A stretch of DNA of 64,000 nt from Halomarina rubra. GTDB lineage: Archaea > Halobacteriota > Halobacteria > Halobacteriales > Haloarculaceae. The stretch lies in contig NZ_JALXFV010000006.1 in assembly GCF_023699475.1 (NCBI RefSeq), positions 1 through 64,000 of the forward strand, written 5' to 3'. Positions 3,869 through 43,340 of this stretch are shown here, piece after piece; position 1 is the stretch's first letter, and each line of letters opens with the position of its first letter. Below the pieces are notes generated by a model. It did no database searches and had not been told where the DNA came from. It worked only from the letters and a program-made list of their open reading frames with translations. The position numbers and the translations under genes are program-made.

Positions 3869-3908
3869 GTTACCCCACGATTTGAAAATATTGGAACTGT
3901 GGGGTAAC
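3869..3908. repeat. perfect 10-bp inverted repeat around an AT-rich core
   Basis: GTTACCCCAC (3869-3878) and GTGGGGTAAC (3899-3908) are perfect inverted repeats around a 20-base AT-rich core. They lie ~50 bases upstream of azf and ~180 bases before the first island gene. They could be an operator, a terminator-like structure or a scar at the island edge. Confidence 0.6.
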
Positions 3909-4090
3909 TCAGAGCGAGAGTGTGGCGCTCGCCAGCGACGATTCACCTGCCTGAACGTATCGAGAGAACTGGACAGCGCCGCTGAGAGTGCCAGAAACGT
4001 CTTCTCTCTCCGCTCGACGAGTTCGAGTATCGACGTGCTCACTGGGCGAGCGGCCACGTGCCTGCCCGTGAGTGCAGCAATCGATGTGCC

Positions 4091-5260
4091 ATGACGAGCC
4101 ACCTGCCATCTGCCGAAACCCTCCCCGCGTCGCTACTTGAGTACGACCAGTGGCTGTGCTGGCGAAGCGAAGAACGTGAGGGCGCTCCAACCAAGGTACC
4201 AATCGACCCGAACACAGGTCGCTTTGCCTCGACGACCGACCCTGCGACGTGGACGTCGTTTTCTGATGCCCGGACGTATGCAACTGGCGGGGATGTAGAC
4301 GGCATTGGCTTCGTGTTCACTGATGAGGACCCCCTTGTCGGGGTTGATCTGGACCACTGCCGTGTCACCGAGACCGAAACCATCCACGAGTGGGCACAGA
4401 AGATTATCGACCGATTGGATTCCTACACCGAAATCAGCCCCTCGGGGACAGGTATCCATGTCCTTGTTCGGGGCTCGCTTCCTGAGGAGGGCAATCGGAG
4501 TGGCAACGTCGAACTGTATGAGAGTGCCCGCTTTTTCACGGTAACAGGGGCCCGGGTCGACGGTACGCAGAGTGAGATTCGTGAACGGACTGAAGCCATC
4601 GCGGCCGTCCATCGAGAACACATTCCGTCATCGACTACGCAGACTACTCAGAATGCTGCCGAACCGCCTGCAGCTCAGGGTACTGCTGGTGAGTCTCTTG
4701 ACGATACCGAGCTCATCGAGCGAGCACAGCAGGCGGCAAACGGCCAGAAGTTCAATCGCCTCTGGAGTGGGTCGATAGCGGGGTATGACAGCCACTCAGA
4801 GGCAGATATGGCACTTTGTTCGATGCTCGCGTTCTGGAGTGGTGGCGATGCCACGCAGATAGACCGCCTGTTTCGTGACTCGGGGCTGTACCGGGGGAAG
4901 TGGGATGAGGTCCACTTCGCCGATGGCTCGACATACGGTGAGAAGACCGTCGACCGCGCGATTGCAGGAACTAGCGAGTTTTACACGCCCAGTCGCTCGG
5001 ACACGACGACATCAGAAGCCGAGGCTTCGTCTGTGGACACGCAAGCCCAGCGAATCGCCACACTCGAACAGGAGGTCGAAGATCTCACCGAGCGACTCGC
5101 GAAACGACGCGACAGTATCGACGCACTGGAACGCGAACTCCACGTTCTTGAGGAGACAAATGCCGATTTACGAGAAGAACTCGAAGCTGCCCGAGTGTCG
5201 ACGGTGGAAGAAAGCGAGCCAACGCCTGAGGAGTCACTCTGGCGACGCTTGTTGCTATAG
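4091..5260 (+). CDS. PrimPol-like replication protein (phage/plasmid primase-polymerase type)
   Basis: The 389-residue protein resembles the archaeo-eukaryotic primase-polymerase proteins of plasmids and viruses (NrS-1-like). The N-terminal part carries LLEYDQWLCWR and a likely metal-binding VGVDLDHC (~residue 82). SPSGTGIHV (~115) follows, a motif typical of the family. Residues ~221-275 form the helical module found after the catalytic domain (NRLWSG, SEADMALCSMLAFW, DRLFRDSGLYRGKW). The C-terminus (~315-370) is a predicted coiled coil. It probably primes or initiates replication of the element. ATG 4091 precedes the conserved N-terminal motif. It is the first gene of the island, and a decayed second copy lies near 34.2-34.4 kb. 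No helicase domain is fused. Confidence 0.75.
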   Translation: MTSHLPSAETLPASLLEYDQWLCWRSEEREGAPTKVPIDPNTGRFASTTDPATWTSFSDARTYATGGDVDGIGFVFTDEDPLVGVDLDHCRVTETETIHEWAQKIIDRLDSYTEISPSGTGIHVLVRGSLPEEGNRSGNVELYESARFFTVTGARVDGTQSEIRERTEAIAAVHREHIPSSTTQTTQNAAEPPAAQGTAGESLDDTELIERAQQAANGQKFNRLWSGSIAGYDSHSEADMALCSMLAFWSGGDATQIDRLFRDSGLYRGKWDEVHFADGSTYGEKTVDRAIAGTSEFYTPSRSDTTTSEAEASSVDTQAQRIATLEQEVEDLTERLAKRRDSIDALERELHVLEETNADLREELEAARVSTVEESEPTPEESLWRRLLL

Positions 5261-6586: not shown

Positions 6587-8275
6587 ATGGCCATTCGACA
6601 CACCCTGGTGCTTGCCGTGTTTGTTGTAGCGGTGGTACTCTCCGGGCTCGTCGTCGCGGCCACCCCATCACAGGATAGTTCGACCGAAAATGGGCTGACA
6701 GCCAACGAGTCGGCGACGCTGTGGTCACGCGATGACGACAGTGGCTACATCACGAACGCCGAGTACCGCGAGGTATACGGTGAGTCACGAAGCGCGATGG
6801 CTGAGTTGGCTAACGCGACAGACATCACGTTCACCAGTCCGCCCGCGACGGCGAGTACGTGGTCACGAGAAGACCATCGCGAGTTCGAGGCCGGTGACGT
6901 CAGCACGTCCGTTGCCCCGCGTGGGGCAGCGCGTGTCGATGGGCGGCTCATCAAGGACGCTCACGCCTCGGTGTTCTCCATCACGCCCGCAACGTACGTC
7001 CACGAGGCAGCTGGTGAGACAACGCTGTACGTCGCTCCGGAAGGCACTCTCCGTGGTGTCATCGACTATCGACTCGCACTCGGAAACGCGACGAATCGGA
7101 GTGATGTTCTCGACCACCGCATCGAGGAGGTCCGATTGCTCGCCGATGGAGCGGTCGTTGCTCGATTGAGTGGAACGCATCGCCCCGTGTTGTCCTACAG
7201 TCTCGATGGTCGCCCAGCGTCACTCACGCTGGAGGCAGACATCACCGCCCGAGTTGACCAGCCAGTCGCGAACACGTCGAACAGTTCCAATCAGTCGGGC
7301 TCAGTCGTCGAGGAGACCATCACCGTCCGTGAGTCACGAGCCATTCGTGTTTATCGCCTTGAGCCAACGCTGCGGACGGTTCGGTATCCCAACGGTGACG
7401 TCGGAGTTGCAGTCTCACAAATCGAGCCCTGGCAGGGCTACTCCTTTGGTGATGACAAGCGCGTCCGGGGTGTCTGGCGATTCTATACCGCCCGCGACAC
7501 CGACTGGGATGAACTGACTGAGCGAACCGGGATGGGTGCCGAGCGGGTCGACTCTCCTGCCCGGCCAGTCGCAGTTCACGCCTATCCCTCGGAGTTAGGC
7601 CCACAGGCCAGACCGACCGGAGGAAGCATCGACCTTCGAGAGACGTGGGGAACTGCCAATAGCCCCCCACAACTCGATGAGTCGGTCTTGGCGGAGGTCG
7701 TCGAACGGCCCTACAATTCGACGTGGGGCATCGAGACGCGCCAGGAGACTGTGGGTGAGTCCGTGATGGTCAGCGGTATCGTCCGCGGCCAGAACACGAC
7801 CCTCGCCGTCAACGGGACCGAACAGACCCTTCGTGAGAGCTCGCTCTCACTCGAAGTGCTGAACCACACTGACGAGCAGGTCACCTTGCTGGCCACGCTT
7901 CGCGATGCGGATAGTGGCGAGCCGATCCAGTTAGGCGAGTTCGGGAGTTCGCCGACCGGGCCGGGCGGTGACCAGAATCGTGGTGGCTATCTCACCATCG
8001 CTGGCCAGAGCGTCGGGACCAATGAGTCCGGGATGGCACTGGTGACGGTCTCTGATGCAGGGGCGTACGCCGCACAGTATCACCCCGAGTCGTGGTTACG
8101 CCAGCCAGTGGCGTACACTCCCGCGAGTGCTTCTGCTCGCTGGCATCCACTCACCACCGCAGCGGGGTGGCTGTGGCTTGCTGTTGATGGGCTCATCTGG
8201 CTCTCACCGCTGTTGCTCGCATTGCTCGCTGGGCGGACGCTCAGCCGATTGTTTGCGGATACGAGGTACACATGA
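6587..8275 (+). CDS. large exported protein with N- and C-terminal membrane segments (T4SS-associated, unknown)
   Basis: The 562-residue protein has a signal peptide (residues ~1-25, LVLAVFVVAVVLSGLVVAA). A ~490-residue acidic extracellular region follows, rich in Asn-X-Thr/Ser glycosylation sites. A single C-terminal membrane helix (~525-550) ends in a short basic tail, so it should be anchored with most of its mass outside. I recognise no catalytic motif. Its place between the pilin-like and VirB6-like genes suggests a surface component of the conjugation apparatus, perhaps for adhesion or channel assembly. The stop overlaps the next start as ATGA, which indicates translational coupling. 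Confidence 0.7.
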   Translation: MAIRHTLVLAVFVVAVVLSGLVVAATPSQDSSTENGLTANESATLWSRDDDSGYITNAEYREVYGESRSAMAELANATDITFTSPPATASTWSREDHREFEAGDVSTSVAPRGAARVDGRLIKDAHASVFSITPATYVHEAAGETTLYVAPEGTLRGVIDYRLALGNATNRSDVLDHRIEEVRLLADGAVVARLSGTHRPVLSYSLDGRPASLTLEADITARVDQPVANTSNSSNQSGSVVEETITVRESRAIRVYRLEPTLRTVRYPNGDVGVAVSQIEPWQGYSFGDDKRVRGVWRFYTARDTDWDELTERTGMGAERVDSPARPVAVHAYPSELGPQARPTGGSIDLRETWGTANSPPQLDESVLAEVVERPYNSTWGIETRQETVGESVMVSGIVRGQNTTLAVNGTEQTLRESSLSLEVLNHTDEQVTLLATLRDADSGEPIQLGEFGSSPTGPGGDQNRGGYLTIAGQSVGTNESGMALVTVSDAGAYAAQYHPESWLRQPVAYTPASASARWHPLTTAAGWLWLAVDGLIWLSPLLLALLAGRTLSRLFADTRYT

Positions 8276-9105: not shown

Positions 9106-10230
9106 ATGCAGTCTCTACCACTGGTCGATTTTGGGGTCAAGTGGTTCACAGATATTGTCGGGACCATCATTGGATGGTTTGCGTCCGAGTTAGCAGACGG
9201 CCTGAACAGTATCGCCTCTGATTTCTTCCGCACACCCCTTCCGAGTGGGTCTGGCTCTAATGTAGTGTTCGGGACACCCAGCTCGTCAGACCAGCCTTGG
9301 CAATCAATCTACCAATCCGTCGTCGCGGGTGAGACCATGCTAATTGCTCTACTCATACTCGCGCTCTTTGTCCAAGGCCGACACGCCATCCGAATTTTCA
9401 ATGTCGGAGGGGCATATGAAGCGCAACAATCTCGCCGGTCAGCTTGGACGGGTGCGTTTTTGATAGTTGCTTGGTACTGGATTGCTGTACTCGGGTTGTA
9501 CGTCGTAGATGGACTGACCGTAGCACTTCTGCCGGAACTGGGCGTGGTCACTGATGCTGTGCTAGGAATTCTCCCAACAGCCGCGGGCAACCCTGCAATC
9601 ACACTCGTGATGGCGATGCTTGGTGGTCTATCGATGGTTGCTTTGGAGGCTATCTTCTTCCTGCGTGAACTCCTGTTGTACATCTACCTCTACGGGATGC
9701 CCATTGGCCTCGCAATCGCCTTTGGGAACGTCCCTGTCATCTCCCAGATTGCTTCACGGCTCTGTAAGCAGATGATTCCGCTCGCCGCACTTCCACTGCC
9801 TGCGGCTATCTTGTTCCGTGGCTATGAACTCCTGTTCGTCGGCGATGCCGTGGTCGTCCCTGAGAGCGACTTTCTGCAGTATCTGGTGGTCGTCTCACTG
9901 CCGATGCTCGCACTGCTCGTGACGTGGAAGACGTTCAGATACGCGAGTCCACTCACCACGCGTGTCATCGGGACTGCGTCAGTCGCAGCCGTGACCGTGG
10001 GCGGTGTCGTCGGGGCAGGCTACGCTGCAGGCCCCTATGCAGCCACGACCGCTGCTCGATGGGGGCCGAAAGCAGCCGCTGGGCAGGTGCTCAGTGAACA
10101 CGCATTCTCGAATTCAGACGAGCAAGACCAGTCAGGACAGCATCTGAGTACAGACAACCTCGCACCTCGGACAGCCAATGGCGGCGCACCGGCCTATCGA
10201 CGTGCAGAGGATGACCCGAGTTACTACTGA
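9106..10230 (+). CDS. polytopic membrane protein, VirB6/TrbL-like
   Basis: The 374-residue protein has about seven hydrophobic helices from ~residue 75 to 315. A hydrophilic N-terminus precedes them, and a charged, disordered C-terminal tail ends in SYY. Number and spacing of helices, and the position immediately before a VirB4-like ATPase, match VirB6/TrbL inner-membrane channel proteins. A landmark is LPAAILFRGYELLFVGD (~residue 225), which recurs in a decayed copy at 14.28 kb. The stop overlaps the next ATG (TGATG). Assignment is from topology and context, not from a diagnostic motif. Confidence 0.6.
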   Translation: MQSLPLVDFGVKWFTDIVGTIIGWFASELADGLNSIASDFFRTPLPSGSGSNVVFGTPSSSDQPWQSIYQSVVAGETMLIALLILALFVQGRHAIRIFNVGGAYEAQQSRRSAWTGAFLIVAWYWIAVLGLYVVDGLTVALLPELGVVTDAVLGILPTAAGNPAITLVMAMLGGLSMVALEAIFFLRELLLYIYLYGMPIGLAIAFGNVPVISQIASRLCKQMIPLAALPLPAAILFRGYELLFVGDAVVVPESDFLQYLVVVSLPMLALLVTWKTFRYASPLTTRVIGTASVAAVTVGGVVGAGYAAGPYAATTAARWGPKAAAGQVLSEHAFSNSDEQDQSGQHLSTDNLAPRTANGGAPAYRRAEDDPSYY

Positions 10231-13130
10231 TGGACGGACCACCTGAACAGGCAAAGCGGCGTATCATGGACGGGCTGGGCCAGACCAGTCGGCTCCCACT
10301 GCTCGGCATCGAAGAAGGCGACATCGGCGTACTGCTCGGTGGGCCGCTGCTCGGTGTGTTCATCGCGAGTCTTCTCGGGCTCGATATGCTCATCTTGCCG
10401 TTAGCGCTGTGTGGCCTGACGCTCGGGGCGATGATCGTCTATGCCGCACCACAGCATCTCGATGCGTGGTACTGGTTCCGAACCGTCTCACATCACGTTG
10501 TGTTTCGCCCCAAGCGAACGCTTGCTGGCGCTGTCGATTCCGACGAGCCAACGACTGAGGGTGGGTTCGTCGAGCGCCTCCCGATCACGGTCGATGAGCG
10601 AACACAGGACCTCACACAGATTCACCGTGCGTGGTTTGGGTCGAATGCTGTCGAGCGGACCGATGGATCGATTCAGGGATTCATCGAACTCCACCCGGAG
10701 ACGATGGACTTTGCCCAGTCTGGTGATTGGGCAGCAGTCCAGGAGACGGCCGCGACATTCGCGAACACCGAGGCCGACTACCCACTTCGCCTCTACGTCA
10801 CCACGCGAGAGTTCGATGTCGAGCCGATGGTCGCACAGCTCGAAGAACGACTGAACGACCCACATCTCGAGACACGCCCGCGAATCAGACGCCTCATCGA
10901 AGAGTACCGTGAGGAACGACCAAAAGCGCTCAAAGACACACAGGAACTGCACTACTACCTCGGGACGGAAGTCGACCGCTTTGACGTCCTCGCACGTGGC
11001 CGCCGTGAACCAACGCCTGGTCAAAAGCTCGCGAGCATTCCACTGCTTGGCCTGTTGTTCACCCCTTTCGTCACTCACCGAACGACTGGAGAGGGCTTTG
11101 ACACCGAACAGCGGATGGCTGACCTACTGGACCGCCGTCTCCAACTCATCGAGACGGAGTTCGTCAACCAACTACCGGGGTGGTCGGCCACACGCTGTGA
11201 AACTCTCGATATGGTTGGCCTGGCAACGCAGTTCTGGAACGGTGACTCAGTCGACGAGATCGAGTATGATGCAGATTCGCCGAACCATCAGGAAGCGTCT
11301 GTCGAGTCGGTTGAGGAACGTGATGGCGAAGACCAGCCAGATGAACTGCTTCGGTCGTTAGTCGCTCCCTCGGAGGTTGAGTGGGAGACACGCGCAGCAC
11401 GGGTGGGCGATGAGTGGACGGCGACGATGTACATCGCTGGCTATCCCGACTACCCCTCTGATGCCCTATTGAGCAAGCTCTTCGAGAAGAGTTCGCTCAA
11501 CTACGACCTCTCGATTCATCTTGAGCCAAAACGCCAGCGCAACGCAGAGAATACACTCCGCAACACGGCCGAACGGCTTCGGGCAGATGCAGATATCGAG
11601 CGGACTGTCCGTGGTCGATATCTCCACGAGCGTGCAGAGGAGGCGGCTGCAACCTACAACGCCGTCGAGCGTGGCCAGCGGGTGTTCTCGCTGGCGACGT
11701 ATCTGACCGTCCGCGCCGAGAATCGCGAAAAACTGGAGAAGACTGTCGAGAACATGCAATCAGCTCTTCGTGGCTACCCAGCAGATTGCTCACCGAAACT
11801 CGCCATCTGTGAACAGCACAAGGGATTGCAGTCAGTCGCACCATTCGGGACAGACCAACTTCGTCACGACGTCGTCGCACTGGGTGGGGCAGTTGGGGCA
11901 TTCCTTTCCTCACTCCACAATCCGACCGTACTCGAAGCAGGTGGCATCGAAGTCGGCACGCACTCGAAGACGGGGACGCCTGTGGTGGTCGACCCCTTTG
12001 CTCGCGAAGACGGCTATGCCATGTTCACAGTGGGTGACCCTGGCTCTGGGAAATCGTTCAGCGCGAAACAGCAGTTCATCCGCTCGCTCGAACAAGACCC
12101 TGACCGAATCGGTGTGATTCTCGAACCGCTCAACAATTGGCGTGGAGTCGCCGACGCGCTCGGTGCGAGTCGCATTACAGTCGGGGGGACACGTGGCCTG
12201 AATCCACTGGAGATCAAGCCCACGCCAGAGCACGAACTCGAACGTCGTGGAAACGATGCCAGCCCACTGCGTGAACGGTGCAATCGCGCAATCGGCTTCT
12301 TCGTGAACTACTTCGCCCTCCGCAATGTCGACCTTGGAGATTCCAGAACCACGCTTGAACGAGTGTTCGATGAGGCGTATGCCCAAGCGGGTATCACCGA
12401 AGACGTCCGGACGCACTCCCGTGAGAGTCCGACTGTTCGTGACGTCCTGGACATCTTAGAGGAGATGAGCGAGGATGCATCGGCATGGGTTGTTCGGAAC
12501 TCCGCAGAGGCTGAAAAGCTCGAAGAAGACGCACTGTGGTTGCTCGACCAGCTTCGAGCATTCGATTCGGGCGGCCAGTTCGAGAATCTGGGGCGAGCCA
12601 GTGAGTTCGATATCCGCGATGAGTCCGTAGTCTATCTTGATTTAGTCCAACAGGGTGGGTCACTCGGCGGGGAGACGAGTCTGTTGATGGAGTTGCTCAT
12701 CTCGCTGGTGTATGAGCACGCCAAACAATCCGAGAAGGAGGTCGTATTCGTAATCGACGAAGCCCGCTATCTGTTCCAGAATAAGTCGACCGCAGAGTAT
12801 CTTGAGACCATCTTCAGGCATCATCGCCATCACGACCTCTCGATTCGTCTCATCACCCAAACGGTCGATGAGTTCTTCGCCCACCCCGAGACCGAAACGA
12901 TTCTCGATCAGTGTTCGGTCAAGCAGTTCAACAAACTGGATGGGATGGACGAACGCTGGGCGAAAGAGTTCGGGATGAACTCTGCGGAGATGCGCTTCGT
13001 TCAGAACGCGGTTCCAGGAAGCGACGAGAAAGGCCACTCGGAGGCGTTGATCGGTGTTGATGGCCAGTGGCGTGGCGTCAAGGTCCGAGCGCTTGATTTC
13101 GAGCGTTCGACTATCGATTCCCGGTCGTGA
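10230..13130 (+). CDS. VirB4-like conjugal transfer ATPase
   Basis: The 966-residue protein has two N-terminal membrane helices (~28-70). A long CagE/TrbE/VirB4-type region follows, then a RecA-like ATPase domain. Walker A is GDPGSGKS (~residue 605) and Walker B is VVFVIDEARYLF (~838), followed by RHHRHHDLSIRLITQT, a VirB4-like sensor region. VirB4 proteins energise assembly of type IV secretion channels and are the most reliable marker of conjugation systems. It is the last gene of the 6.1-13.1 kb operon. The domain is full length and shows no disruption. The matching coupling ATPase is the minus-strand gene at 21.6-25.0 kb. Confidence 0.88.
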   Translation: MDGPPEQAKRRIMDGLGQTSRLPLLGIEEGDIGVLLGGPLLGVFIASLLGLDMLILPLALCGLTLGAMIVYAAPQHLDAWYWFRTVSHHVVFRPKRTLAGAVDSDEPTTEGGFVERLPITVDERTQDLTQIHRAWFGSNAVERTDGSIQGFIELHPETMDFAQSGDWAAVQETAATFANTEADYPLRLYVTTREFDVEPMVAQLEERLNDPHLETRPRIRRLIEEYREERPKALKDTQELHYYLGTEVDRFDVLARGRREPTPGQKLASIPLLGLLFTPFVTHRTTGEGFDTEQRMADLLDRRLQLIETEFVNQLPGWSATRCETLDMVGLATQFWNGDSVDEIEYDADSPNHQEASVESVEERDGEDQPDELLRSLVAPSEVEWETRAARVGDEWTATMYIAGYPDYPSDALLSKLFEKSSLNYDLSIHLEPKRQRNAENTLRNTAERLRADADIERTVRGRYLHERAEEAAATYNAVERGQRVFSLATYLTVRAENREKLEKTVENMQSALRGYPADCSPKLAICEQHKGLQSVAPFGTDQLRHDVVALGGAVGAFLSSLHNPTVLEAGGIEVGTHSKTGTPVVVDPFAREDGYAMFTVGDPGSGKSFSAKQQFIRSLEQDPDRIGVILEPLNNWRGVADALGASRITVGGTRGLNPLEIKPTPEHELERRGNDASPLRERCNRAIGFFVNYFALRNVDLGDSRTTLERVFDEAYAQAGITEDVRTHSRESPTVRDVLDILEEMSEDASAWVVRNSAEAEKLEEDALWLLDQLRAFDSGGQFENLGRASEFDIRDESVVYLDLVQQGGSLGGETSLLMELLISLVYEHAKQSEKEVVFVIDEARYLFQNKSTAEYLETIFRHHRHHDLSIRLITQTVDEFFAHPETETILDQCSVKQFNKLDGMDERWAKEFGMNSAEMRFVQNAVPGSDEKGHSEALIGVDGQWRGVKVRALDFERSTIDSRS

Positions 13131-19810: not shown

Positions 19811-20120
19811 TTGATGGCCTACTCCTCTGACTGACGTCGTATATGTCTCGGTGAACGGCTGTACGTGACAATGGACAGTGCAAATACGGTAGCTAATCTG
19901 CATCCACGAAAGTGGACAGACAGAAACTTTCTATCGGTGGCGAGCACGCTCATCGCTCCATCCAACCTTACCACACAGAGCCAACAATCACCACGTTCTC
20001 TGAACGCTCCTCCTCGAAGTCACATTGTAGAATGCTGTTCAAGAGATGGCACTCACGTCCGCTCATTGAGAGGACCGAACAGGCAGGCACAGGTTCGTGT
20101 TGCTGTGGGCGAACGAATTT

Positions 20121-20764
20121 CCACACATGGGTTAAATGGCCGGTAGATGCCTCGCTACTGCGGTTTGTGGAAATTGCGGTGCGTTTGGGGTGTGAGCGGT
20201 GTCCTGTCCCCCGTGTGTTCGAGTACTCGGGCGCGAATCGGAAATCGTCGGTTTGTGAGGGATACGGACCATCTAGCGGCTGAATGCGAGTGGTGACTGT
20301 GGTGAGATGCGCTGGAGTGACTCTGTAATTCGTGTCTCCTGAGTGGGCGATTGTTCCACACATGGACGCCCTCGTGCGATTTTGCATGTGTGTATCGGTG
20401 GGAATCGCCGGTTTGAATCTCGATACGTCTTCGTCGAATATCGGTGTTTGAGCGTCCCTATTATGTGTTGATGGGGAAATCGATGATGGTGGCGAGTGGT
20501 GCTGCTCGATGTGCATTGGCTGTTTGAGGGGGGTTTCAGCGTTCCACACATGGACGCCGTCTATCGGTTTTCACCTGTGAGATGGGGTCGTAAGCGGAGT
20601 TGCAGGCATTGTTGTTGGGGGCTGTATCGCCCGTTTTCGGCTGGCTCTTCGGAACTGTGCTGGGTGGGCTGTCGATGAGGGCCCTCGAGTGGATGCCCTA
20701 ATGGCGGTGAATGCCCACACACAGGTGAGTAACGTACTCTACCGGGGATTGGGGCCATGTGTGG
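20121..20764. repeat. iteron-like repeats of CCACACATGG
   Basis: Copies lie at 20121-20130, 20356-20365, 20544-20553 and (reverse complement) 20755-20764. The second and third share a longer TTCCACACATGGACGCC core. Between the copies the sequence is not repeated. Confidence 0.7.
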
Positions 20765-21179
20765 AGATTCGGGTGGTTGGTGGGCCCGGTTGTGTCGCAA
20801 TTCTCACGCGATGGATCCGGACACTGGGTTGACCTGTGGGGTGGGTGTGAGTAATCGTGCTGGTGAGTGCGATGGGGTCACGCTGGCAGGCTGATAGGAT
20901 GGTGACTGACTCTCGCCAGTGTGTCGACAGTGGTGGGTGTTCACCACGCTGGTGAAACGTGGCCAAATGTCCACTTCTATCGAATCGACGGTGATGGCTC
21001 GGGGGCTTGTTTTCGAGGGCCTTTTTCGGCTTGATTAGCGCTCCGAGCAGTCGGCTCGATCGTGACTTCGAGTAGTCAGCTCAAGTGTAGCTGTGTCCTG
21101 TCTGGGTGGCAGGTCACCTGCCTTGCTCACAGCGGGGTGAGTTCGACTGTGGAGGGCTTTCGTTGGGTGTGATAACGCG

Positions 21180-21575
21180 GCCTGACTTCCTCCCACGACT
21201 GAACTCATAGGGTAATGTATCGCGCTCACACAGGGGCTTGACTGTGGGCTACTCCGACGAAGACACTCCCCGGTGGGATTAGCTACCCACGACTAACGTC
21301 GTAGGCGTCCGCCTCAAATCTCTGTGAGCACCGCTGAGTTCAGGAGAAGTTGACTCGTGGGCCGGCCAGTCGAACGCGGTCGGGTCGATTGGTTACTCGG
21401 CCCGAAACTCAGGTCATCGTTGAACCTGAGAACTCCCAAGATTCCGTGGGCCTAACTCAGTGAGGGGCCCCCGCGACTTCAGTCGTGGAAGAAGTCAGGG
21501 TCACCCTCGCTTTCCTCGAATCACAGCACTGCACTGGAACGTCGTGAAGACGTCCACGACGTCAGTCGTGGGTCG
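21180..21575. mobile_element. cluster of TnpB-type element ends (MITE-like remnant)
   Basis: On the minus strand 21183-21206 reads TTCAGTCGTGGGAGGAAGTC, and on the plus strand 21469-21495 reads GCGACTTCAGTCGTGGAAGAAGTC. Both match the terminal hairpin plus GAxGAAGTC tail of haloarchaeal IS200/IS605-type elements. Further hairpins lie at 21285-21303 and 21552-21572. The two opposed ends enclose ~280 bases with no coding capacity. Confidence 0.5.
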
Positions 21576-21579
21576 TTGG

Positions 21580-24500
21580 CTATTGCGTGTCCTCGGAATC
21601 CTCGGCGTCCTCGCTGAGCATGTCCCGCGCATCGTGGAACGTGTACACCTTGCTCAGTCCGGGCGTGTCGATTGTGAAGTCTCGGGGGGCCGTCGTCTCA
21701 CTGTAGGTTTGCTCGACACGCTGTGGCCCTTCGTTCGGGTCATTGAGCGTCTGGAGGAGCTTGTGAGCAGCATTGCGGCTTTCGACCAGCCAGATTGCGT
21801 CCTCCGGGTCGAACTCTGCCATCTTATCGTAGTCGCTCAGAACGGCTTCGGCGATATCGTGATTGAGCCGCTCGGCCTCGAACGTGACCACGACCTCTCC
21901 ATCGTCGTTCAACGCCACTGCATCGAGTCGTGAGCCCCCGCCGATGTCGTAGTATGGCTTGACCTGTGTTGCCTCTGACTCGGGGTTTTCGACGTAGTAA
22001 CGCCGGAGCAACATCAACCCGAGAATGACCATCGCGACGTGGAAACTCGACTCACCAAGGTCGCCTTCCCCATCACCGAATGCAAGTCCGGATTTGTGTG
22101 CCTCGTTCAGCAGGCTACGGCCGGCCGCAGTGACGGTGTACAGTGTGTGGGGATACTTCGTGTCTTCCGATAAGAGGTCGTCGTCGATGAGTTCCTGGAC
22201 GTGGTGTGACTCAGCGCCAGTGTACTCCTGGAGTCTGACCATCGAATCCCAGATGAGGTCGTACTCCCAGTCACTGTCGACGCGCTGTTGATGGGCGTCA
22301 TAGACCGCCTGAAGGAAGAACAACTGCTGGTCGGTATAGCCCGTGGCCGCCCGTTCATCTGGTGAGAGCTTGGTCGACAGCGAACACAGCGGGACGTCCT
22401 CGCGGTTGAGGCGATCAAGGCCATAACAACACCCGACTGCGATGAGTAGGCCATCGAGTGATGTCTCATAGCGAGTCTCACAATGTGAGCAGACGAGTAC
22501 CTCTGCGGCAGCGTCGAACTCGATGCCCTTCGGGAAGCGCTTTGTGTATCCCAACACGTGCGTGTGGTCTGGTGGCGTTGGCTCGGTGTCGGGGGCTGTG
22601 GATGGGATGACAGTGTTCGCGACGTCGACACCGTGTTCATCGAGGGTATCCTCGCGGAGCAACTCGAATGCGGAATCGAATCTCGCCTGCATCGCTGGCG
22701 TCAGTGGCCTGTCGCTCTTGGGATGGCCATCGGGAAGTGGGTCCGACTGAAGTGTGAATGGCTGTGGCTCCGGAACGCCGTACTCACTGGGGAGCCTGGC
22801 GAGCCATTCACCACTTTTGAGCGCTCGAAGTCGGTTTCCTGCGTCCGTAGCGGACATCCCCGAGGTCGCGAATCGGGTGGCGAGTTCAGCATCGACCGCG
22901 ACGTTCCCCGCGATGATCGTCGAGATGTTGTTGAGAACCTCATCGTACGCCCGGGGACTGGCTGCTTGCAACTGCTTGGGAAACTGCATCGAGAGCCCCA
23001 CAGAAAGGTCGAAGCCACGGCCCTGACTGAGTAGGTCGGTCATGAGGCGTGTGGCTGCAACGTTAGCTGCCTCTTCGATATGGAGGTTGACGGTTGGGTT
23101 CTCTCCCATCCGCGTCGCCCGGCGTCTGAGCGCCGTCCAGAGCTTCGAGAGCAAGACGAGCGTGAGGGCAGTTTGTGACGACGACCGGAAGCCACTGGTG
23201 TCGAAGATGACGGTGGCCTTCTCATCATCGAGGATATCGCTGAACTCGAAGTGGGCATCATCCTCTTCTGGAACGTGCGTGAAGAGCTTGTTGAGCCGGC
23301 TATCTTCGGGAATCTTGTTGATACGGGTCTCTGCCCCACCGAGCACCATCTCGATTGTCTGGGTCGTATCGGAGGTGATACTCCCCAGCATCCGTTCGAG
23401 AACCTCATCGCTCACCGGAGGTGCATCCTCTGTCGCTTTCATCTCTACCGCTGCCTGCTGTAAGTCATCGTGTGAGAACGCATCGCTCCCATGGATCGGG
23501 TCGAACAGTGCCTTGACGAGATAGCGGATGGCCGACGGCGACTTCACCGCCTGGTGGAATCGATCGGTGCCCATCACGATTTCGAGAATTTCGATGTAGT
23601 GGTCGACGATGTCCTCGACGGCTTGGTTTCGCGGCGTGTTCGACGCGAGGTCTGCTCGAACATCGAAAAACGAGAGCGCAGGGAGTGTCTCTGCACACTC
23701 GAAGTAATAGACGTCATCGAGATTCCCGTGTTTCGCGAAATGAGCCTGCAGGTACTCTTTGGGCAATCCATCTCCCTTCCCGTCAATGATGATCGACGCC
23801 CCGAGTTGGCGAGGTGGCTCCTCATCGGTCTCGCTTTCTTCTCGTGGCTCATTGTTGAGCGTCCCAGTCAGCCCGAAAATCGACTTCCCGGAGCCAGACT
23901 TCCCAATGATCAGGATATGCCGTGGTTGCATCGACGGGGGTAATGCGATCTGCTGGGTTGGCTCGCCATCACTCGACAGTGCGGTCCCAAGTGGGAATCC
24001 CGCATCGTACTGTTCGAGAATGTTCTCGGGTGGCTGTGTCAGGCCCGTTCGCTCCGGAGGCGTTGCTGCAATTGCGCGCTTTCCGTTCGCCGTGAGTTGG
24101 TCGCCATCGATGACACACAGATGGGCAAGCGACCGCTCATCTGCAACCAGTGTCGGGCGAACAGCGATAGCGAGAAGCCAGACGAGCAATCGCCTCCCTA
24201 TCGTGAGGGTCGGCATCGTGCGCGCTGCCATCCGCTCAGCAAGGTCTTCTGGCTGATCGCTGCGTACATCCATTATCTTGTAGAATTTCCCATCTGACGT
24301 GGTGAGTGCTGAATCGAGTTTGCCGAGCGCACGGTCGCTCTCGGGTCCCCACGCAATCGCTCGAGTGGCAATCGTAAACGAGCTATCGGTGCTCATCGAA
24401 TCGATGCGCTCTCTGCGGTCTTCATGTTCTGCAAACGTCTCGATCTCCTTTTCGGGGTCCGTTGGGGTCATGAAGTCCCAAAATCGCATTGCTCTGGTGT

Positions 24501-25047
24501 CGAGGTTGTTCTTCAGCAGGTCGTCGCGGTTATTGGCGAGCTGTCTCCAGTCGTCTTTCGCCGTGATGAGTGCCTGATAGACGACGGTCGCCTCGACCTC
24601 CGCAAGTGAGCTGACGAGTGAGGTGAACGCTGGCTTCGTGTCGGACGCAGGGACGTCATCGGTGACGAGTGGCCGAAGCCCAGTCTGCCAGTCGTTCTTG
24701 CGTCTGCCATCGCCCTTGAACTCGACGCCACGCAGTGACGCGTCATCGATTGGCAATGGCTCCATCGACTCGACTCGTCTGAGTGCATACCCCACAAGCG
24801 CCTCTCGGAGAATCGGCTGAATGTCATCGAGAAGGTCAGGGCTGGCACAGATACGGTAGGTGCACACCCCCTCATCGATGATGAACTGCCACTCCAGAAC
24901 CTCCTCTTTGAGATACGAATGACATCGCTTGAGATGCCGAGCAATCTGAATCGGGTCTAACGAATCGGTCGTTGGCGTGATCTCGATGGCAGATCGCTCG
25001 CTCCACTCTGCAAATCTGTCGGAAGTTTGGCTATCGTCTGAGGCCAT
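21580..25047 (-). CDS. VirD4-like conjugation coupling ATPase with large C-terminal extension
   Basis: The 1155-residue protein has an N-terminal region of ~370 residues. A RecA-like motor domain follows with Walker A GKSGSGKS (~residue 381), Walker B SIIIDGKGDG (~419) and a second acidic motif LHIEEAANVA (~656). This is the pattern of the VirD4/TraD-HerA group that brings DNA to the type IV channel. A C-terminal part of ~400 residues contains a possible zinc site (CSHC, ~855) and a winged-helix-like segment. The last third has a KPYYDIGGGSRLDAVALNDDG stretch that resembles a nuclease-like or VirB4-associated fold. A TATA-like TTATTA lies ~27 bases upstream of the start. It is opposite in strand to the VirB4 operon. 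Confidence 0.82.
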   Translation of the reverse strand: MASDDSQTSDRFAEWSERSAIEITPTTDSLDPIQIARHLKRCHSYLKEEVLEWQFIIDEGVCTYRICASPDLLDDIQPILREALVGYALRRVESMEPLPIDDASLRGVEFKGDGRRKNDWQTGLRPLVTDDVPASDTKPAFTSLVSSLAEVEATVVYQALITAKDDWRQLANNRDDLLKNNLDTRAMRFWDFMTPTDPEKEIETFAEHEDRRERIDSMSTDSSFTIATRAIAWGPESDRALGKLDSALTTSDGKFYKIMDVRSDQPEDLAERMAARTMPTLTIGRRLLVWLLAIAVRPTLVADERSLAHLCVIDGDQLTANGKRAIAATPPERTGLTQPPENILEQYDAGFPLGTALSSDGEPTQQIALPPSMQPRHILIIGKSGSGKSIFGLTGTLNNEPREESETDEEPPRQLGASIIIDGKGDGLPKEYLQAHFAKHGNLDDVYYFECAETLPALSFFDVRADLASNTPRNQAVEDIVDHYIEILEIVMGTDRFHQAVKSPSAIRYLVKALFDPIHGSDAFSHDDLQQAAVEMKATEDAPPVSDEVLERMLGSITSDTTQTIEMVLGGAETRINKIPEDSRLNKLFTHVPEEDDAHFEFSDILDDEKATVIFDTSGFRSSSQTALTLVLLSKLWTALRRRATRMGENPTVNLHIEEAANVAATRLMTDLLSQGRGFDLSVGLSMQFPKQLQAASPRAYDEVLNNISTIIAGNVAVDAELATRFATSGMSATDAGNRLRALKSGEWLARLPSEYGVPEPQPFTLQSDPLPDGHPKSDRPLTPAMQARFDSAFELLREDTLDEHGVDVANTVIPSTAPDTEPTPPDHTHVLGYTKRFPKGIEFDAAAEVLVCSHCETRYETSLDGLLIAVGCCYGLDRLNREDVPLCSLSTKLSPDERAATGYTDQQLFFLQAVYDAHQQRVDSDWEYDLIWDSMVRLQEYTGAESHHVQELIDDDLLSEDTKYPHTLYTVTAAGRSLLNEAHKSGLAFGDGEGDLGESSFHVAMVILGLMLLRRYYVENPESEATQVKPYYDIGGGSRLDAVALNDDGEVVVTFEAERLNHDIAEAVLSDYDKMAEFDPEDAIWLVESRNAAHKLLQTLNDPNEGPQRVEQTYSETTAPRDFTIDTPGLSKVYTFHDARDMLSEDAEDSEDTQ

Positions 25048-25892
25048 CTGTTCGGCTCGGAGTAATCGGCTGTAATAACTCCCCCTGTCTTGCCGCTATT
25101 TGCGTCAATAGGGTGGTCAGTAGCGCTCGAAAGGCAATCGAGCAGATGGGTCTGGGGCGATATCCAGTCGCGTCTTCAGGATGGGTTGTGAGTGGTGGAT
25201 GAGGTGTTTCTATCAGAATCTAGTATATGTGTTGTCGTGGTTGTCTGTGTGTGGGCTGTGATCGACACCCAAAGCCAGAGGCGCCAGCCGCGCATTTCCA
25301 TCCTCCACCAGATGCACATGGTCCGGTTGAGCCCTCGCCTGTGGACGAATCTCATCACCTCGCAGTGCTGTTCACCGTGCTCGAATGGATTGTCGAACGA
25401 CGAAATAGCCCGAACGGGTGAGGAGTGGCTCTGGTGTCGAACTCTGGGCTACCTTGTGACCATTGCTACAGAGATTCGAGGCGAGTGCCTCCGAGGGTGA
25501 CCCCCAAGCGGTTCAACCCACTTCGTTTGGTGGCTGCTCGATAGTCGCTCTCGGCTCGTCCCGCTCGCTTCTCTGCCAGCCGACCGCAGCGCTCGTTGCA
25601 CTCGCGGTGCTCACTCGCTCGCCCCCTCCCGGGACGCCAGCACCAAGCGCACTGTCGGTTCTCGCTATCACTCGAACGCGCCACCGGCTTGTGTGCTGGC
25701 CGCTCGTGTCGTCTGGCCCAGCGCGCGGGGCTGGATGGATTCGTCGAAGAAAGCGCTCGCTCGCGCCCGAAGGGCGCTCGAAGGCGCGAGCGAGCGCAGA
25801 TGGAGTTGTGACTGACGGAGAGTCGGTCTGTGAGAAAACCGCGATTAGAGTCGCGGTTGTCGGCGCGTGAACGCCTTCGGTCAACGAAGACC
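25048..25892. other. intergenic region with IS-end remnant and strong palindromes
   Basis: About 845 bases without a supported gene. It carries GT-rich sequence at 25190-25260, a TnpB-end-like stretch at 25475-25515, a 15-bp inverted repeat at 25753-25797 and an 8-bp inverted repeat AACCGCGA/TCGCGGTT at 25837-25858. The last one is ~35 bases before the OB-fold gene and is a candidate operator. Confidence 0.5.
25753..25797. repeat. 15-bp perfect inverted repeat
   Basis: GCGCTCGCTCGCGCC (25753-25767) and GGCGCGAGCGAGCGC (25783-25797) flank a 15-base loop. The stem is very strong and could act as a terminator or a cruciform site upstream of the OB-fold gene. Confidence 0.7.
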
Positions 25893-26735
25893 ATGAGTAG
25901 CAAGATTAGCAGTCACAAAGAAGGTAGCGAAGCATACGAACACGTTGTCGACCCCACGGTCAAGTGGGAAGTCGACGAGCGGGTGGAACTCCGGGCAACG
26001 GTGGCGATGGAGATGCAGGCGACCATCGATTCGGACGTGATCGAGGCGATGGCGGCGGTCGAGAACGGCGAGTGTGAGCGGCCCTTCGGGATGACCCTCG
26101 AAGCCGAAGAACGGTGGGAGGCACGCGAGTTGGAGGTGGAGAGAACGCGGACCAGAGAAGATCGGTCACAAACGTCGAAGCGTGAAGCGGTGTGTCGTGG
26201 AATGTCCGTGAGGCAGTGTGGCCAAGAGACGGTCGAGCGGATCAACCCGATGGATGATCTGGATACGGAGACGCGTAGAGCGGTCGAGACGCAAGCGGCG
26301 CGGATTGCGAGTCGGGTGCGTGGCGGGATGGCTCCCTCAGGTATCGAAGTGCGGATTGCAGAACGGATGAACGCAGGAGCGGATGTCCAGACGGCGGTGC
26401 TCGAGACGCTGGATGAGGTAAAAGCGACACCCGGAGCGGTTGTGCCAATCGATGAGATCGGGACGGTGGGACGCAGTGAGGTCGACATCGAGGGTCGTAT
26501 CTCGAAGCTGTGGACGCCCTCACACCCCTCGATTGCGCAGGTCGGTCTGTTGGAGGATGCGACAGGGACGGTCAAGTTCACCAGTTGGGCGCGGTCGAAC
26601 CAACCCTGGCTGGCAGAAGGTGATGTGGTCCGGCTGCGGAACGTCGCGTGGAACTACTACGGGGAGCGCGTCTCAGTGGCACTGACTGGCTGGTCAACGG
26701 TGGTGTCCTTGGGTTCGTCTCAGACGCCGAGATAA
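25893..26735 (+). CDS. RPA-like OB-fold single-strand-DNA-binding protein
   Basis: The 280-residue protein has a charged helical N-terminal part (~1-180) and a C-terminal OB-fold (~188-270). Landmarks are [25 protein letters not shown] and DVVRLRNVAWNYYGERVSVAL. The OB-fold resembles those of haloarchaeal RPA-type single-strand DNA-binding proteins, often found on plasmids. It probably protects or remodels single-stranded DNA during replication or transfer. ATG 25893 follows a candidate operator (25837-25858). Its 3' third is the parent of truncated copies at 28.2 and 36.1 kb. Confidence 0.75.
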   Translation: MSSKISSHKEGSEAYEHVVDPTVKWEVDERVELRATVAMEMQATIDSDVIEAMAAVENGECERPFGMTLEAEERWEARELEVERTRTREDRSQTSKREAVCRGMSVRQCGQETVERINPMDDLDTETRRAVETQAARIASRVRGGMAPSGIEVRIAERMNAGADVQTAVLETLDEVKATPGAVVPIDEIGTVGRSEVDIEGRISKLWTPSHPSIAQVGLLEDATGTVKFTSWARSNQPWLAEGDVVRLRNVAWNYYGERVSVALTGWSTVVSLGSSQTPR

Positions 26736-26764
26736 GCTCGCTACGCGGTTTGTTTTCCATTCGA

Positions 26765-26838
26765 GACTCCCAGTGCCCATATCCCCACCTCCCCTCCTAT
26801 CGCTCCCGTGGCTCCGCCACGGCAGCCACTACCTTACG
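26765..26838 (+). repeat. 3'-flank hairpin repeat, copy 1
   Basis: GACTCCCAGTGCCCA..CCCC..CGCTCCCGTGGCTCCGCCAC. The stem is CCGTGGC/GCCACGG at 26806-26822. The block follows the OB-fold gene and recurs after its truncated copy (28.5 kb), alone at 29.97 kb, and in decayed form at 36.4 kb. It could act as a transcription terminator. Confidence 0.8.
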
Positions 26839-28219: not shown

Positions 28220-28498
28220 ATCGGGACGGTGGGACGCAGTGAGGTGGATATCGAGGGCTGTGTGACGATGTTGTGGACGCCCTCATACCCCTCGATTGCG
28301 CAGGTCGGTCTGTTGGAAGATGCCTTTGGGACGGTCAAGTTCACCAGTTGGGCGCGGTCGAATCAACCCTGGCTGGCAGAAGGTGATGTGGTCAGGTTGC
28401 GGAACGTCGCGTGGAACTACTACGGTGATCGCGTCTCGGTCGCATTGACGGGCTGGTCAGCGGTGGTGTTCCCCGGAAGCTCTCAGACGCCGAGATAA
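28220..28498 (+). pseudogene. truncated copy of the OB-fold gene 3' end (copy 2)
   Basis: From AATCGGGACGGTGGGACGCAG to the stop, this repeats the last ~92 codons of the gene at 25893-26735 with long identical tracts. The frame is intact: VDIEG.., [30 protein letters not shown]. The N-terminal two thirds are absent and no good start codon or promoter fits. An isolated OB-fold peptide cannot be excluded. The similarity continues past the stop into the hairpin. Confidence 0.8.
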
Positions 28499-28526
28499 GC
28501 TCCCTGCGCGATTTTTCGTTCTGCTG

Positions 28527-28605
28527 TGACTCCCAGTGCCCACGACCCCACCTCTCCCCCCACCGCTCCCGTGGCGACGCCACGGCAGCCACTACCTCTG
28601 TCAGC
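28527..28605 (+). repeat. 3'-flank hairpin repeat, copy 2
   Basis: GTGACTCCCAGTGCCCACGA..CGCTCCCGTGGCGACGCCAC, stem at 28569-28585. It follows OB-fold copy 2 at the same distance as copy 1 follows the full gene. Confidence 0.8.
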
Positions 28606-29966: not shown

Positions 29967-30045
29967 GTGACTCCCAGTGCCCACGACCCCTCCTCCCCAC
30001 CCACCGCTCCCGTGGCGACGCCACGGCAGCCACAACCTCTGTCGC
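29967..30045 (+). repeat. 3'-flank hairpin repeat, copy 3 (without an OB-fold fragment)
   Basis: GTGACTCCCAGTGCCCACGA..CGCTCCCGTGGCGACGCCAC, stem at 30010-30026, nearly identical to copy 2. Here the OB-fold coding part is missing; the MNT promoter region lies directly to its left. Confidence 0.8.
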
Positions 30046-36082: not shown

Positions 36083-36354
36083 GGACGGTGGGACGCAGCG
36101 GGGTCGATATCGAAGGTCGTATCTCGACGTTGTGGACGCCCTCACACCACTCGATTGCGGATGTTGACCTTCTGGAAGATGACTCTGGAACGGTCAAGTT
36201 CACTAGTTGGGCTCGGAGTACCCAGCCGTGGTTAGCAGCGGGTGATGTGGTCCAGCTCGGAACGTCGCGTGGAACTACTACAGTGAGCACGTCTCAATTG
36301 CGTTGACGGGTTGGTCAGCGGTGGTGTTCCCCGCGGCTCTCAGAGCCCGAGATA
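36083..36354 (+). pseudogene. truncated, frameshifted copy of the OB-fold gene 3' end (copy 3)
   Basis: It starts at GGACGGTGGGACGCAG, almost exactly where copy 2 starts. It encodes [28 protein letters not shown] and DVVQL. One base is missing near 36258 (CAGCTCGGAAC against CGGCTGCGGAAC in the parent). The end (NVAWNYYSEHVSIALTGW) is therefore in another frame. It is the most diverged copy and presumably the oldest. Confidence 0.82.
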
Positions 36355-36779
36355 AATTCGCTGGGGGGAGGGGTTTCTATCCGCTGTGGCCCCCAACCTA
36401 CGACCCCGCCTCTCCACCCACCGCTCCCGGGGCAAAACCACGGTTCCCCTGCCTCTGATGCTGGTTGGATTCCTCGCTCAGGATGGTTCCTGTGCACGAT
36501 CGTTCATCTGGTCAGCGCTCGAACTTCTTGCAAGAGCAAAGAATCGTCGTCGGCCGACAGAGGTGAGTCAGAAATCGTTTGCGTAGCCCTTTCTGATTTG
36601 GACCTTCCCGAGGCGAAGATCAGCGAACGAGACATCTGAACATGTGGCCATCGTCAACGGCTGGTTAAAGACGAGTCGCGTCGAGAGGTCGCTGCGTGTT
36701 CAGCGTCCGCGAGTTGATTTCCAAGTGCAGCGACCGCCTCGTTTGGATGCTGTTGCATCGTGTCGATGGTGCCTACAAG
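36355..36779. other. non-coding stretch with decayed hairpin repeat (copy 4)
   Basis: CCCCGCCTCTCCACCCACCG..CTCCCGGGGCAAAACCACGG at 36400-36443 matches the 3'-flank repeat but its stem is broken. The rest has no supported gene, although the minus strand from 36779 to ~36660 continues the frame of the next feature after a stop. Confidence 0.5.
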
Positions 36780-36950: not shown

Positions 36951-37077
36951 TCTGAATAAAATTTGGGTTAATAAGCTACAATATTTGAGTAAAATACATC
37001 GGCCGTTTTGGGGATATTCCGATATACTATTACCCAGGGGCGACATGACGCAACTATACATACTCTCAGTACGCTAA

Positions 37078-38808
37078 ATGGCATCTAAAAAGAAACTCAT
37101 CCTAACTTTATCGCTCTTAGGCTTCTCTGCATTGTTGTTAATCCAGGTTTTGAATCCCTATACAAAGTATGAGTTCTCACTTCTTTCAGCTCTACCAGTT
37201 TATCATTGGATTGGCGTGATTATTTTATTTTCTATTGGTCTATATCTAATACTACAAAGCCACAAAAAAAATTGGGCCACTTGGGACACTGGATTATTGG
37301 TTGTGTTCATGTCACACTTCGTGTTACTGGTTATCCCACTTTCGAGGGGATACTTCATGTATGGGAGTGGAGACCCTGTGACGCAAAGGGCTTTTGTTGA
37401 GTATATTCTTGCAACTGGTAAAGTTCCAGAATATCGTCACCCATTGATTCACTCGCTAGGTGCGAGCGTGTCTCTAATATCGAAGATTTCTCCTAGAACC
37501 ATCGTGACGATTATCCCGATGATTACGTCGCTTTTCTGCATAATTTGTAATTTCCTTGTCATCAGGTCGCTGGTGGATTCCCGAAGGGCGCTCTTGATTG
37601 CATTATGTTTCAGTATCTTTGTGGCGACTCCCCGATTCACCCCATTTCACGTAGGGACTATGCTACTGCCACTTGTCACACTTTTGTATATACAGTTCAG
37701 GCGCCACGAACAAATTTCGTACTTTTGCGCTCTATCCTTAGTATTGCTTGCGATGATTCCTCTTCACGCAATTGTCTCACTATTTAGCTTAATTGCAATC
37801 TGCGGATATGAGCTCTCAAACGAGATCACAAACAAAGTTTCACAAGAATCAGACTCCCTACCTTTTTCAGTTGTCCCTCCCCTTATTCTATGTTCTGTAT
37901 TCACCATATGGTATATTCTACAAGGATTCTTGCTTGAACCGATTAATCGAGTCTTGATATCATACTTTGGGCCAGTCAGAGAGACCACGCAATCGGAACG
38001 ATACGTGAGTATTGTATCGAAAGCAGGAGATCACTTGGCCGAAATTATTGAGGTCGGGTTTTACAGATATGGTGGGTTTAGTATTCTCCTGGCTATGTTT
38101 CTTTTTTGTGGTCTAGTATTTGTATGGGGTGCTTCACGAAACAGATGGAAAGAATGGTTTGCAAGTGCGTTTAGTTTCGTGACTGTCGGTCTATTCGTTA
38201 CCATCATGTTTGCATCCATTTTCACATTCACGATAGTTGGGTTTAAGAGATTGTTTTTGCCAATAACGATATTCTCCCCGATTTTAATTGGGACGACTTC
38301 TGATTTTGTAATGAGTAAGAGCGCTCAACTACCTAGACGTATATACAGTGTGGTTTTGATTGTAGTACTTGTTCTACTGGTGACACACCATACAATCGCA
38401 TTCTATCCCGCCATTGAAGAAAAGCGAACACATAGACAGCTCACCGAAGCAAATTATGAAGGTGGTACATGGTTTATAGAACATTCAAACATTAAGATTG
38501 AAACGCACACTTTTCAGGCAGGGCTATTTCGAATTGCTGACCTCAGCGAAGCTAAGAAGGGGAAACTCACCGATTCGCGCTATCGATGGACTCCTACGGT
38601 CAAATCTGGGTTTGCATATGGTCCCCGATTCTCAGATCGGGTCTATGTTGTCGCCACAACAACTGGTATTGAGTACTACCCGCGCGCTTTCCCTCAATTC
38701 CCGGACAATTGGCGCTATACTCCTGAAAATTTCGAGAACTTCTACCGCGCACAGGATGCAATCTATAGTTCAGGCAGTTTTCACGTTTCTATATCCAATA
38801 GCTCCTGA
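37078..38808 (+). CDS. multi-TM membrane protein of the glycan locus (GT-C- or polymerase-like)
   Basis: The 576-residue protein has about 13 hydrophobic helices over residues ~5-450 and a C-terminal soluble part of ~120 residues. A GDPVTQRAFVEYILATGK segment in the first outside loop, followed by HPLIHSLGASV, is the kind of acidic loop found in GT-C glycosyltransferases or polysaccharide polymerases that use lipid-linked sugars. Composition is AT-rich, unlike most of the window. ATG 37078 is directly preceded by an AT-rich promoter region. It is the first gene of the glycan cluster. I cannot tell polymerase from transferase. Confidence 0.65.
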   Translation: MASKKKLILTLSLLGFSALLLIQVLNPYTKYEFSLLSALPVYHWIGVIILFSIGLYLILQSHKKNWATWDTGLLVVFMSHFVLLVIPLSRGYFMYGSGDPVTQRAFVEYILATGKVPEYRHPLIHSLGASVSLISKISPRTIVTIIPMITSLFCIICNFLVIRSLVDSRRALLIALCFSIFVATPRFTPFHVGTMLLPLVTLLYIQFRRHEQISYFCALSLVLLAMIPLHAIVSLFSLIAICGYELSNEITNKVSQESDSLPFSVVPPLILCSVFTIWYILQGFLLEPINRVLISYFGPVRETTQSERYVSIVSKAGDHLAEIIEVGFYRYGGFSILLAMFLFCGLVFVWGASRNRWKEWFASAFSFVTVGLFVTIMFASIFTFTIVGFKRLFLPITIFSPILIGTTSDFVMSKSAQLPRRIYSVVLIVVLVLLVTHHTIAFYPAIEEKRTHRQLTEANYEGGTWFIEHSNIKIETHTFQAGLFRIADLSEAKKGKLTDSRYRWTPTVKSGFAYGPRFSDRVYVVATTTGIEYYPRAFPQFPDNWRYTPENFENFYRAQDAIYSSGSFHVSISNSS

Positions 38809-38940
38809 CAAACTACTATCCAATCGTGGGTTTTGGATAGTTGACTTGTGAATACATCAGTATTCACAGAGATTAGATCGAATTCTATCTTATAGACAAT
38901 AATTATCCTGTGGGAGCTGACGCGGATATCCCCGGAGGTT

Positions 38941-40494: not shown

Positions 40495-40687
40495 GGCACT
40501 CTGTTTTAGTCACCGTGTCGACTTTCCACGCTCCACGAAAATAGTTGCACTAAATATGTGAAATTAGCCTTGGACCGAGTGCTCATACCACTGGAAAACT
40601 GAACCGCCCATTCTCGATGGTAGGAAGCGAGAGTTTTCCCTTAGCGATACCGACAACAATAATGTTCCTTTACTTCTCTAGCGGTTG

Positions 40688-41992: not shown

Positions 41993-42058
41993 CTAGTAAT
42001 AGATAAATTTAGCATCCAATTGGATAGCATGTTAGTAGCGGATTTAACCTTGGCGATT

Positions 42059-43174: not shown

Positions 43175-43340
43175 GATATCTAGGGATTCATCAATCACTC
43201 TTACTAAATCTATGCGTTTGTGTATCTGAAAACGGACTTCAACTCTCTGTGTTTTTAAGGTAATTTGTCTGAGGAGGATGCACCTGACACCTTCGTCCCC
43301 AAACAGCACATCTAAGTTGCACTGCGCTATTTTTCCCATA

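Follow-up and report, generated by a model that had tools for sequence, protein, structure and literature searches.

Here we describe a non-coding module of four short sites that lies beside the gene of a VirD4-like ATPase in a haloarchaeal mobile element, and that recurs in other haloarchaea with the same rigid geometry, with arms that covary, and with a link to VirD4-like genes whose clades the arm type follows. We tentatively read it as a cis-acting DNA-processing site of haloarchaeal mobile elements, similar to an origin of transfer, on which a multi-site nucleoprotein complex would assemble; with equal reserve, we propose that the reader of such a site is the VirD4-like protein or a partner. 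To our knowledge, where DNA processing starts in haloarchaeal conjugative-type elements, and how it proceeds, has not been established. The module, recognisable by its sequence and spacing and with arms that track VirD4, is a concrete cis-element.

Anatomy of the module

Within the window (the whole stretch of 64 kb that was analysed) the 10-mer CCACACATGG occurs at 20121, 20356 and 20544 on the plus strand and at 20755 on the minus strand, with start-to-start distances of 235, 188 and 211, and is absent from the rest; four copies were reached by none of 100 shuffles. These positions bear out the evenly spaced repeats, three direct and the last inverted, of a preliminary description made from the sequence alone. 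Its account of a gene-free, G/T-rich stretch also holds, as no plausible gene or open reading frame falls within 20121-20764 and G+T stands at 60-66% between 20118 and about 21200. The surroundings of the inverted last copy match those of the inverted first copy (79% over 34 nt). A search of related elements, as the description had proposed, found the repeats kept at a spacing of 234/188/212 in genome G056, beside the closest homologue of the VirD4-like gene, with 71% DNA identity over about 650 bp.

The 4.07-Mb genome as a whole contains 13 copies of CCACACATGG, against 8 of the reversed control. Occurrence of the motif elsewhere in the genome was to count against the preliminary description; it does occur elsewhere, but this is informative because several of the other copies make up further modules. 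Three of them (C9:620705, 620939 and 621336) are all part of another module, and one (C9:329770) lies inside a third. Alignment of the window, G056 and C9 copies revealed that each 10-mer opens a longer unit, and the following features were delineated:

20121-20764, plus strand: whole four-site module, 644 bp, non-coding, oriented U1 to U4
20121-20170, plus strand: U1, outer site, with arm CCACA, core CCGGTAGA and inverted arm TGTGG
20356-20383, plus strand: U2, inner half-site, arm CCACACATGG then GTGCGATTTT
20544-20571, plus strand: U3, inner half-site, arm CCACACATGG then CTATCGGTTTT
20622-20644, plus strand: candidate weak fifth motif, from the alignment of modules
20715-20764, minus strand: U4, outer site, inverted copy of the U1 type

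U1 and U4 form an outer pair in inverted orientation, each following a plan of about 50 bp in which a 5' arm NNACA, 12-14 nt, a core CCG[GC][AT]AGAA (with variants) and an inverted 3' arm TGTNN succeed one another. The inner units U2 and U3 consist of an arm and then a core ending in GCG[AG]TTTT, and the fifth motif is clearer in the aligned modules C12, C3 and G056d, as TGAAACGCTTGAATTC. Arm sequences vary between lineages, yet change together inside one module: the C12 module, beside the second VirD4 paralogue of the host genome, has the same cores and spacing with arms GTACAC/GTACAG. When measured on an alignment of 15 outer sites, the outer-site arms covary as inverted repeats, with 88% of cells paired and 11 double changes, against 16-61% paired in slid controls.

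As a separate observation, the region 21180-21580 of the window contains repeats CCCACGACTnA / TCAGTCGTGGG that resemble the ends of IS1341/TnpB-type elements, with no gene, and similar pieces are present on contigs C10, C11 and C14. The stretch 21180-21500, to the right of the module, looks like such element ends and is separate.

Geometry and distribution

Spacing is rigid across the 15 modules compared. The U2-U3 distance is 186-189, U3 lies 218-221 from the end of U4 (exactly 220 in 11 of the 15), U1-U2 falls into two classes (230-235 or 249-252), and total length is 638-661. The U2-U3 interior has an ungapped identity of 28.8%, against 25.5% for shuffled sequence, which together with the rigid spacing indicates constraint on spacing and hardly any on sequence; copies in the same genome have almost nothing in common except sites and spacing. 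Helical phasing of the spacings was dropped, because about 18 bp separate the two U1-U2 classes, no whole number of turns.

A scan combining position weights and spacing was trained without the whole tested lineage (the g1 species, or G122 with G066), and its top score in about 20 kb fell on the true module for 13 of 14 held-out modules, the single miss (G122d) being 26 bases off; the best score for C9b, absent from every training set, was also at the true module. Held-out scores ranged from -0.1 to 57. Shuffle controls, run with the full model, reached at most about -11 in the main control, and one shuffled GC-rich locus scored 5.7 under wider spacing limits, so that G122b and G122d, at the bottom of the held-out range, do not reach significance alone.

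Outer sites were sought more widely with R1, a covariance model built from the alignment of 15 outer sites, which matches U1 at 20119-20172 (42.7 bits) and U4 at 20713-20766 (42.4 bits). At E up to 10 it gave exactly ten matches in the host genome, making five inverted pairs, on C13 (the window module), C12, C9 (twice) and C3. At E up to 0.5, 11 of 146 genomes of the family were positive, with inverted pairs mostly 554-612 bp apart, and a class-wide search of 242 genomes added G317, G308 and G174. G174 belongs to another family, and its module is complete, with sites spaced 226/186/218. Modules were also sought along the 3' sides of VirD4-like genes, where further arm types came to light (CTACA, GTACA, CTTCA, GAACACWTCGG and TCAYAATCGG); the TCAYAATCGG type has three sites, about 185/207 bp apart, and G308 carries the three-site type adjoining its VirD4-like gene. 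Arms are mostly uniform among the modules of one genome, and two arm types do co-occur in one genome. R1 modules are present in two of eight species of the host genus, and most species, close relatives included, are R1-negative.

Exact-pattern and blastn scans beyond the host genome, covering plasmids, phages, viral contigs and genome contigs (the last two each scanned with two patterns) and 391 haloarchaeal genomes, returned nothing, because arms differ between lineages. A lone DNA match in G092 was rejected as a module, being a match in a coding region. Simple 12-mer geometry scans without core motifs were noisy in GC-rich coding DNA, and the covariance model and the weight-matrix scan with spacing were used instead. 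The part of the literature covered by our search, which took in few subscription journals, contained no account of such a module.

The VirD4-like gene and its surroundings

The window module sits between type IV secretion-like genes and the VirD4-like gene of the same element:

4058-5260, plus strand: primase-polymerase-like gene (NrS-1 HBD domain)
9106-10230, plus strand: TrbL_3/VirB6-like, transfer-type gene
10230-13130, plus strand: VirB4-like, transfer-type gene
21580-25047, minus strand: VirD4-like ATPase, 1155 aa, with Zn ribbon, winged helix and predicted PD-(D/E)XK-like C-terminal domain
25830-26735, plus strand: RPA-like single-strand DNA-binding (OB-fold) protein

The preliminary description had named the flanking gene VirD4-like, and its best library match is indeed the VirD4-like CD1115 conjugation family, but the match is weak (E 7e-7) and far below the model cut-off. 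The C-terminus of the protein comprises a Zn ribbon, a winged helix and a predicted alpha-beta-beta-beta-alpha-beta domain with a conserved D and E-A-E, and its Foldseek neighbours include winged helices and PD-(D/E)XK nucleases, all of them weak, with no E below 1e-3. The VirD4-like protein is a candidate reader of the module.

Arm type tracks the VirD4 tree. On a tree of 16 VirD4 proteins it requires 5 changes (minimum 4), against a shuffled mean of 8.2, a value as low being reached in 1 of 200 shuffles, and one arm type corresponds to a VirD4 clade with 100/100 support across two host families. The W-type and C12-type VirD4 paralogues, both in the host genome and neighbours in the tree, bear different arms. 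Such combinations amount to natural swaps, in which one genome gives its two paralogues different arms and two host families share an arm type. R1 modules are also associated with the long VirD4 type (Fisher p 0.002, 146 genomes), in a test that corrects neither for phylogeny nor for the limited reach of R1.

Many modules lie directly downstream of a VirD4-like gene and others stand alone in intergenic DNA. U4 is the unit closest to the 3' end of the VirD4-like gene in the window and in the other VirD4-linked copies read. The compared VirD4-linked elements have little in common beyond VirD4, although an RPA-like protein is encoded in seven, and several VirD4-linked modules have no TrbL-type secretion gene nearby. 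Among the R1 loci outside the model-building set, 2 of about 17 are near a VirD4-like gene, at about 0.5 kb in G308 and about 5 kb in G047, and no universal neighbour gene was found within about 10 kb of 18 modules. In G056 and G122, which belong to different genera, a module lies upstream of the gene for a DRG GTPase, and other DRG loci searched had no R1 match. At the one locus of this kind that was delimited, in G056, the insert is about 1.5 kb, with the module inside and ends that do not coincide with the arms. In three genomes, modules are found near a DUF7287-7289 operon. Genes flanking modules have mixed orientation.

The accessible part of one account of haloarchaeal integrated mobile elements (PMC9259645) describes VirB4, HerA and TraG/VirD4-type genes; the window element resembles these in its VirB4-like and VirD4-like ATPase genes, and differs in its cis-acting module, which is not part of the description given there. 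No fusexin gene was found in the window element by a sequence search of one candidate, a 562-aa gene at 6587-8275 that had no PDB sequence match, leaving a fusexin relative unsupported. A short inverted repeat, GTTACCCCAC...GTGGGGTAAC, lies at 3870-3905, just before the primase-polymerase-like gene and likely near the left edge of the element.

Candidate functions

Rigid spacing, a free interior, palindromic outer sites and inner half-sites together point to a DNA site for an assembled protein complex, and, given the VirD4 link, the likeliest single reading is a function resembling that of a transfer origin or some other form of DNA processing. From this we infer that the module may be bound by protein, folded, cut and transferred. 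A protein would read the arm of about 10 bp at each of the four sites: the outer ones, U1 and U4, would present it as an inverted pair, and the inner ones, U2 and U3, as a half-site. The intervening DNA would fold and bring the sites together, which would account for spacing that is rigid although the sequence is free. The VirD4-like ATPase, with a predicted winged helix and PD-(D/E)XK-like fold at its C-terminus, would most likely belong to the resulting complex; this complex would open or cut the DNA and feed it into a transfer pore, the linked RPA-like protein would shield single strands, and stand-alone modules with matching arms could be served in trans.

Origins of transfer are non-coding, contain inverted and direct repeats, adjoin a coupling-protein-like gene and have a lineage-specific site sequence. 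The module resembles the origins of conjugative and mobilisable elements in all these respects, its sites being specific to element lineages. A coupling-protein-like gene is linked to it in many elements, and most of the unlinked R1 loci are not beside one. It differs from them in that no relaxase was found among the annotated genes of the element and no nick site was identified for the module, in having four sites over 640 bp with rigid spacing, and in further copies with no transfer genes nearby. VirD4-like plasmid records were all typed as non-mobilizable by MOB-suite. The preliminary description had regarded repeats near a VirD4-like gene, with strand asymmetry, as features of a replication or transfer origin. 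The recurrence of modules downstream of related VirD4-like genes and the agreement of arm type with the VirD4 tree keep that proposal ahead of other kinds of explanation, but its argument from skew fails: when computed, skew was strong only in the window copy and its nearest relative, and it was rejected as a general module feature, being near zero or reversed in the others. A bolder version of our reading, a relaxase-independent archaeal transfer origin at which a VirD4-type motor fused to winged-helix and PD-(D/E)XK-type nuclease domains would recognise the rigid four-site module, cut it and export the DNA, so that dispersed chromosomal copies would open parts of the host chromosome to transfer, we regard as doubtful.

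Of the copies located independently of VirD4, the majority have no VirD4-like gene next to them, which keeps two other explanations serious. The first, which we rate as rather unlikely, is a selfish non-autonomous mobile element or its residue, with U1 and U4 as recombinase or transposase ends and U2 and U3 as internal sites; selection for mobility would preserve sites and spacing while the interior drifts. Like transposon ends and miniature inverted-repeat elements, the module has inverted ends, internal sites, no gene inside and dispersed copies, several per genome at different places and with arms common to copies within a genome. Presence is sporadic, even within the host genus, and the insertion upstream of DRG in G056 and G122 is absent in the other genomes examined. 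Against this, no convincing target-site duplication was found at the arms of 15 modules (two 5-bp matches are at chance level), the G056 insert is not bounded by the inverted repeats at this sole locus examined, same-genome copies are alike almost only in sites and spacing, and placement beside VirD4-like genes in fixed orientation is not random. A transposon with duplications was accordingly rejected on the first two grounds.

Quite unlikely, in our estimate, is the second: a host chromosomal site, for segregation, nucleoid organisation or the like, read by a host protein, of which mobile elements would carry copies so as to exploit or evade it. Genomes with at least five modules, arms that seldom differ between the modules of a genome, and housekeeping places shared across genera (upstream of DRG, and the DUF7287-7289 operon) would suit such a site, whereas the R1-negative state of most species, arm types that follow VirD4 clades across host families, and a genome with two arm types speak against it. 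Should either of these two explanations hold instead, a nucleoprotein site of 640 bp in which spacing is fixed and sequence free would still be unusual for archaea.

We consider it improbable that the module is the replication origin of the element, even though RPA-like and primase-polymerase-like genes are carried there. Archaeal Orc1/Cdc6 origins have inverted recognition sites in intergenic DNA with lineage-specific site sequences, and the module is like them in this. It differs in lacking an origin recognition box, no match to the archaeal pattern being found in the window or in other modules beside VirD4 (the preliminary description had likewise seen no match of its motif to the usual box); in its mean AT profile, which runs at 36-50% over 15 modules with no distinct peak that would mark an unwinding region; and in having no orc1/cdc6 among annotated neighbours. 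An Orc-box origin was rejected on the absence of box and AT-rich region, and the primase-polymerase-like gene is 16 kb from the window module. The interval between VirD4 and the primase-polymerase gene in G120 and G115 does offer an inverted-repeat region with an origin-box-like motif. This region of about 490 bp (L041 14207-14697 and L055 6871-7357, respectively) is bounded by 39-nt inverted repeats and contains the motif TTCCACCGGAAACGATGGGGGTG; its cores, CCCGCAAGG / TCCGCAGTG, suggest by their sequence that it may be a distant relative of the module.

Least probable is that the module encodes a large non-coding RNA closed by pairing between U1 and U4 at its ends, as the long-range complementarity and compensatory arm changes could imply, since RNAalifold gave mainly U1/U4 pairing, on both strands as any inverted DNA site would, with little consensus folding beyond it (interior alignments being unreliable), Rfam gave no match up to the relaxed threshold of E=1, and flanking gene orientation is mixed; neither Rfam nor consensus folding supports a structured RNA.

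Other features of the element were recorded in passing. A 25-nt hairpin repeat, CCCGTGGCnnCGCCACGGCAGCCAC, lies at 26805-26829, 28568-28592 and 30009-30033 of the window, with a degenerate copy near 36400, and at 524313, 525428 and 526963 on C12. The six copies in the genome have one orientation throughout and are confined to the two VirD4 elements, where they follow the RPA-like gene or fragments from its 3' end and lie between cargo genes (Fic, nucleotidyltransferase, TnpB), and look like a cassette array. The 3' end of the RPA-like gene, its OB-fold part, recurs as fragments at 25545-26834, 28220-28598 and 36083-36443. From 37001 to 46000, GC content drops sharply to 40-48%, against about 58% around it.
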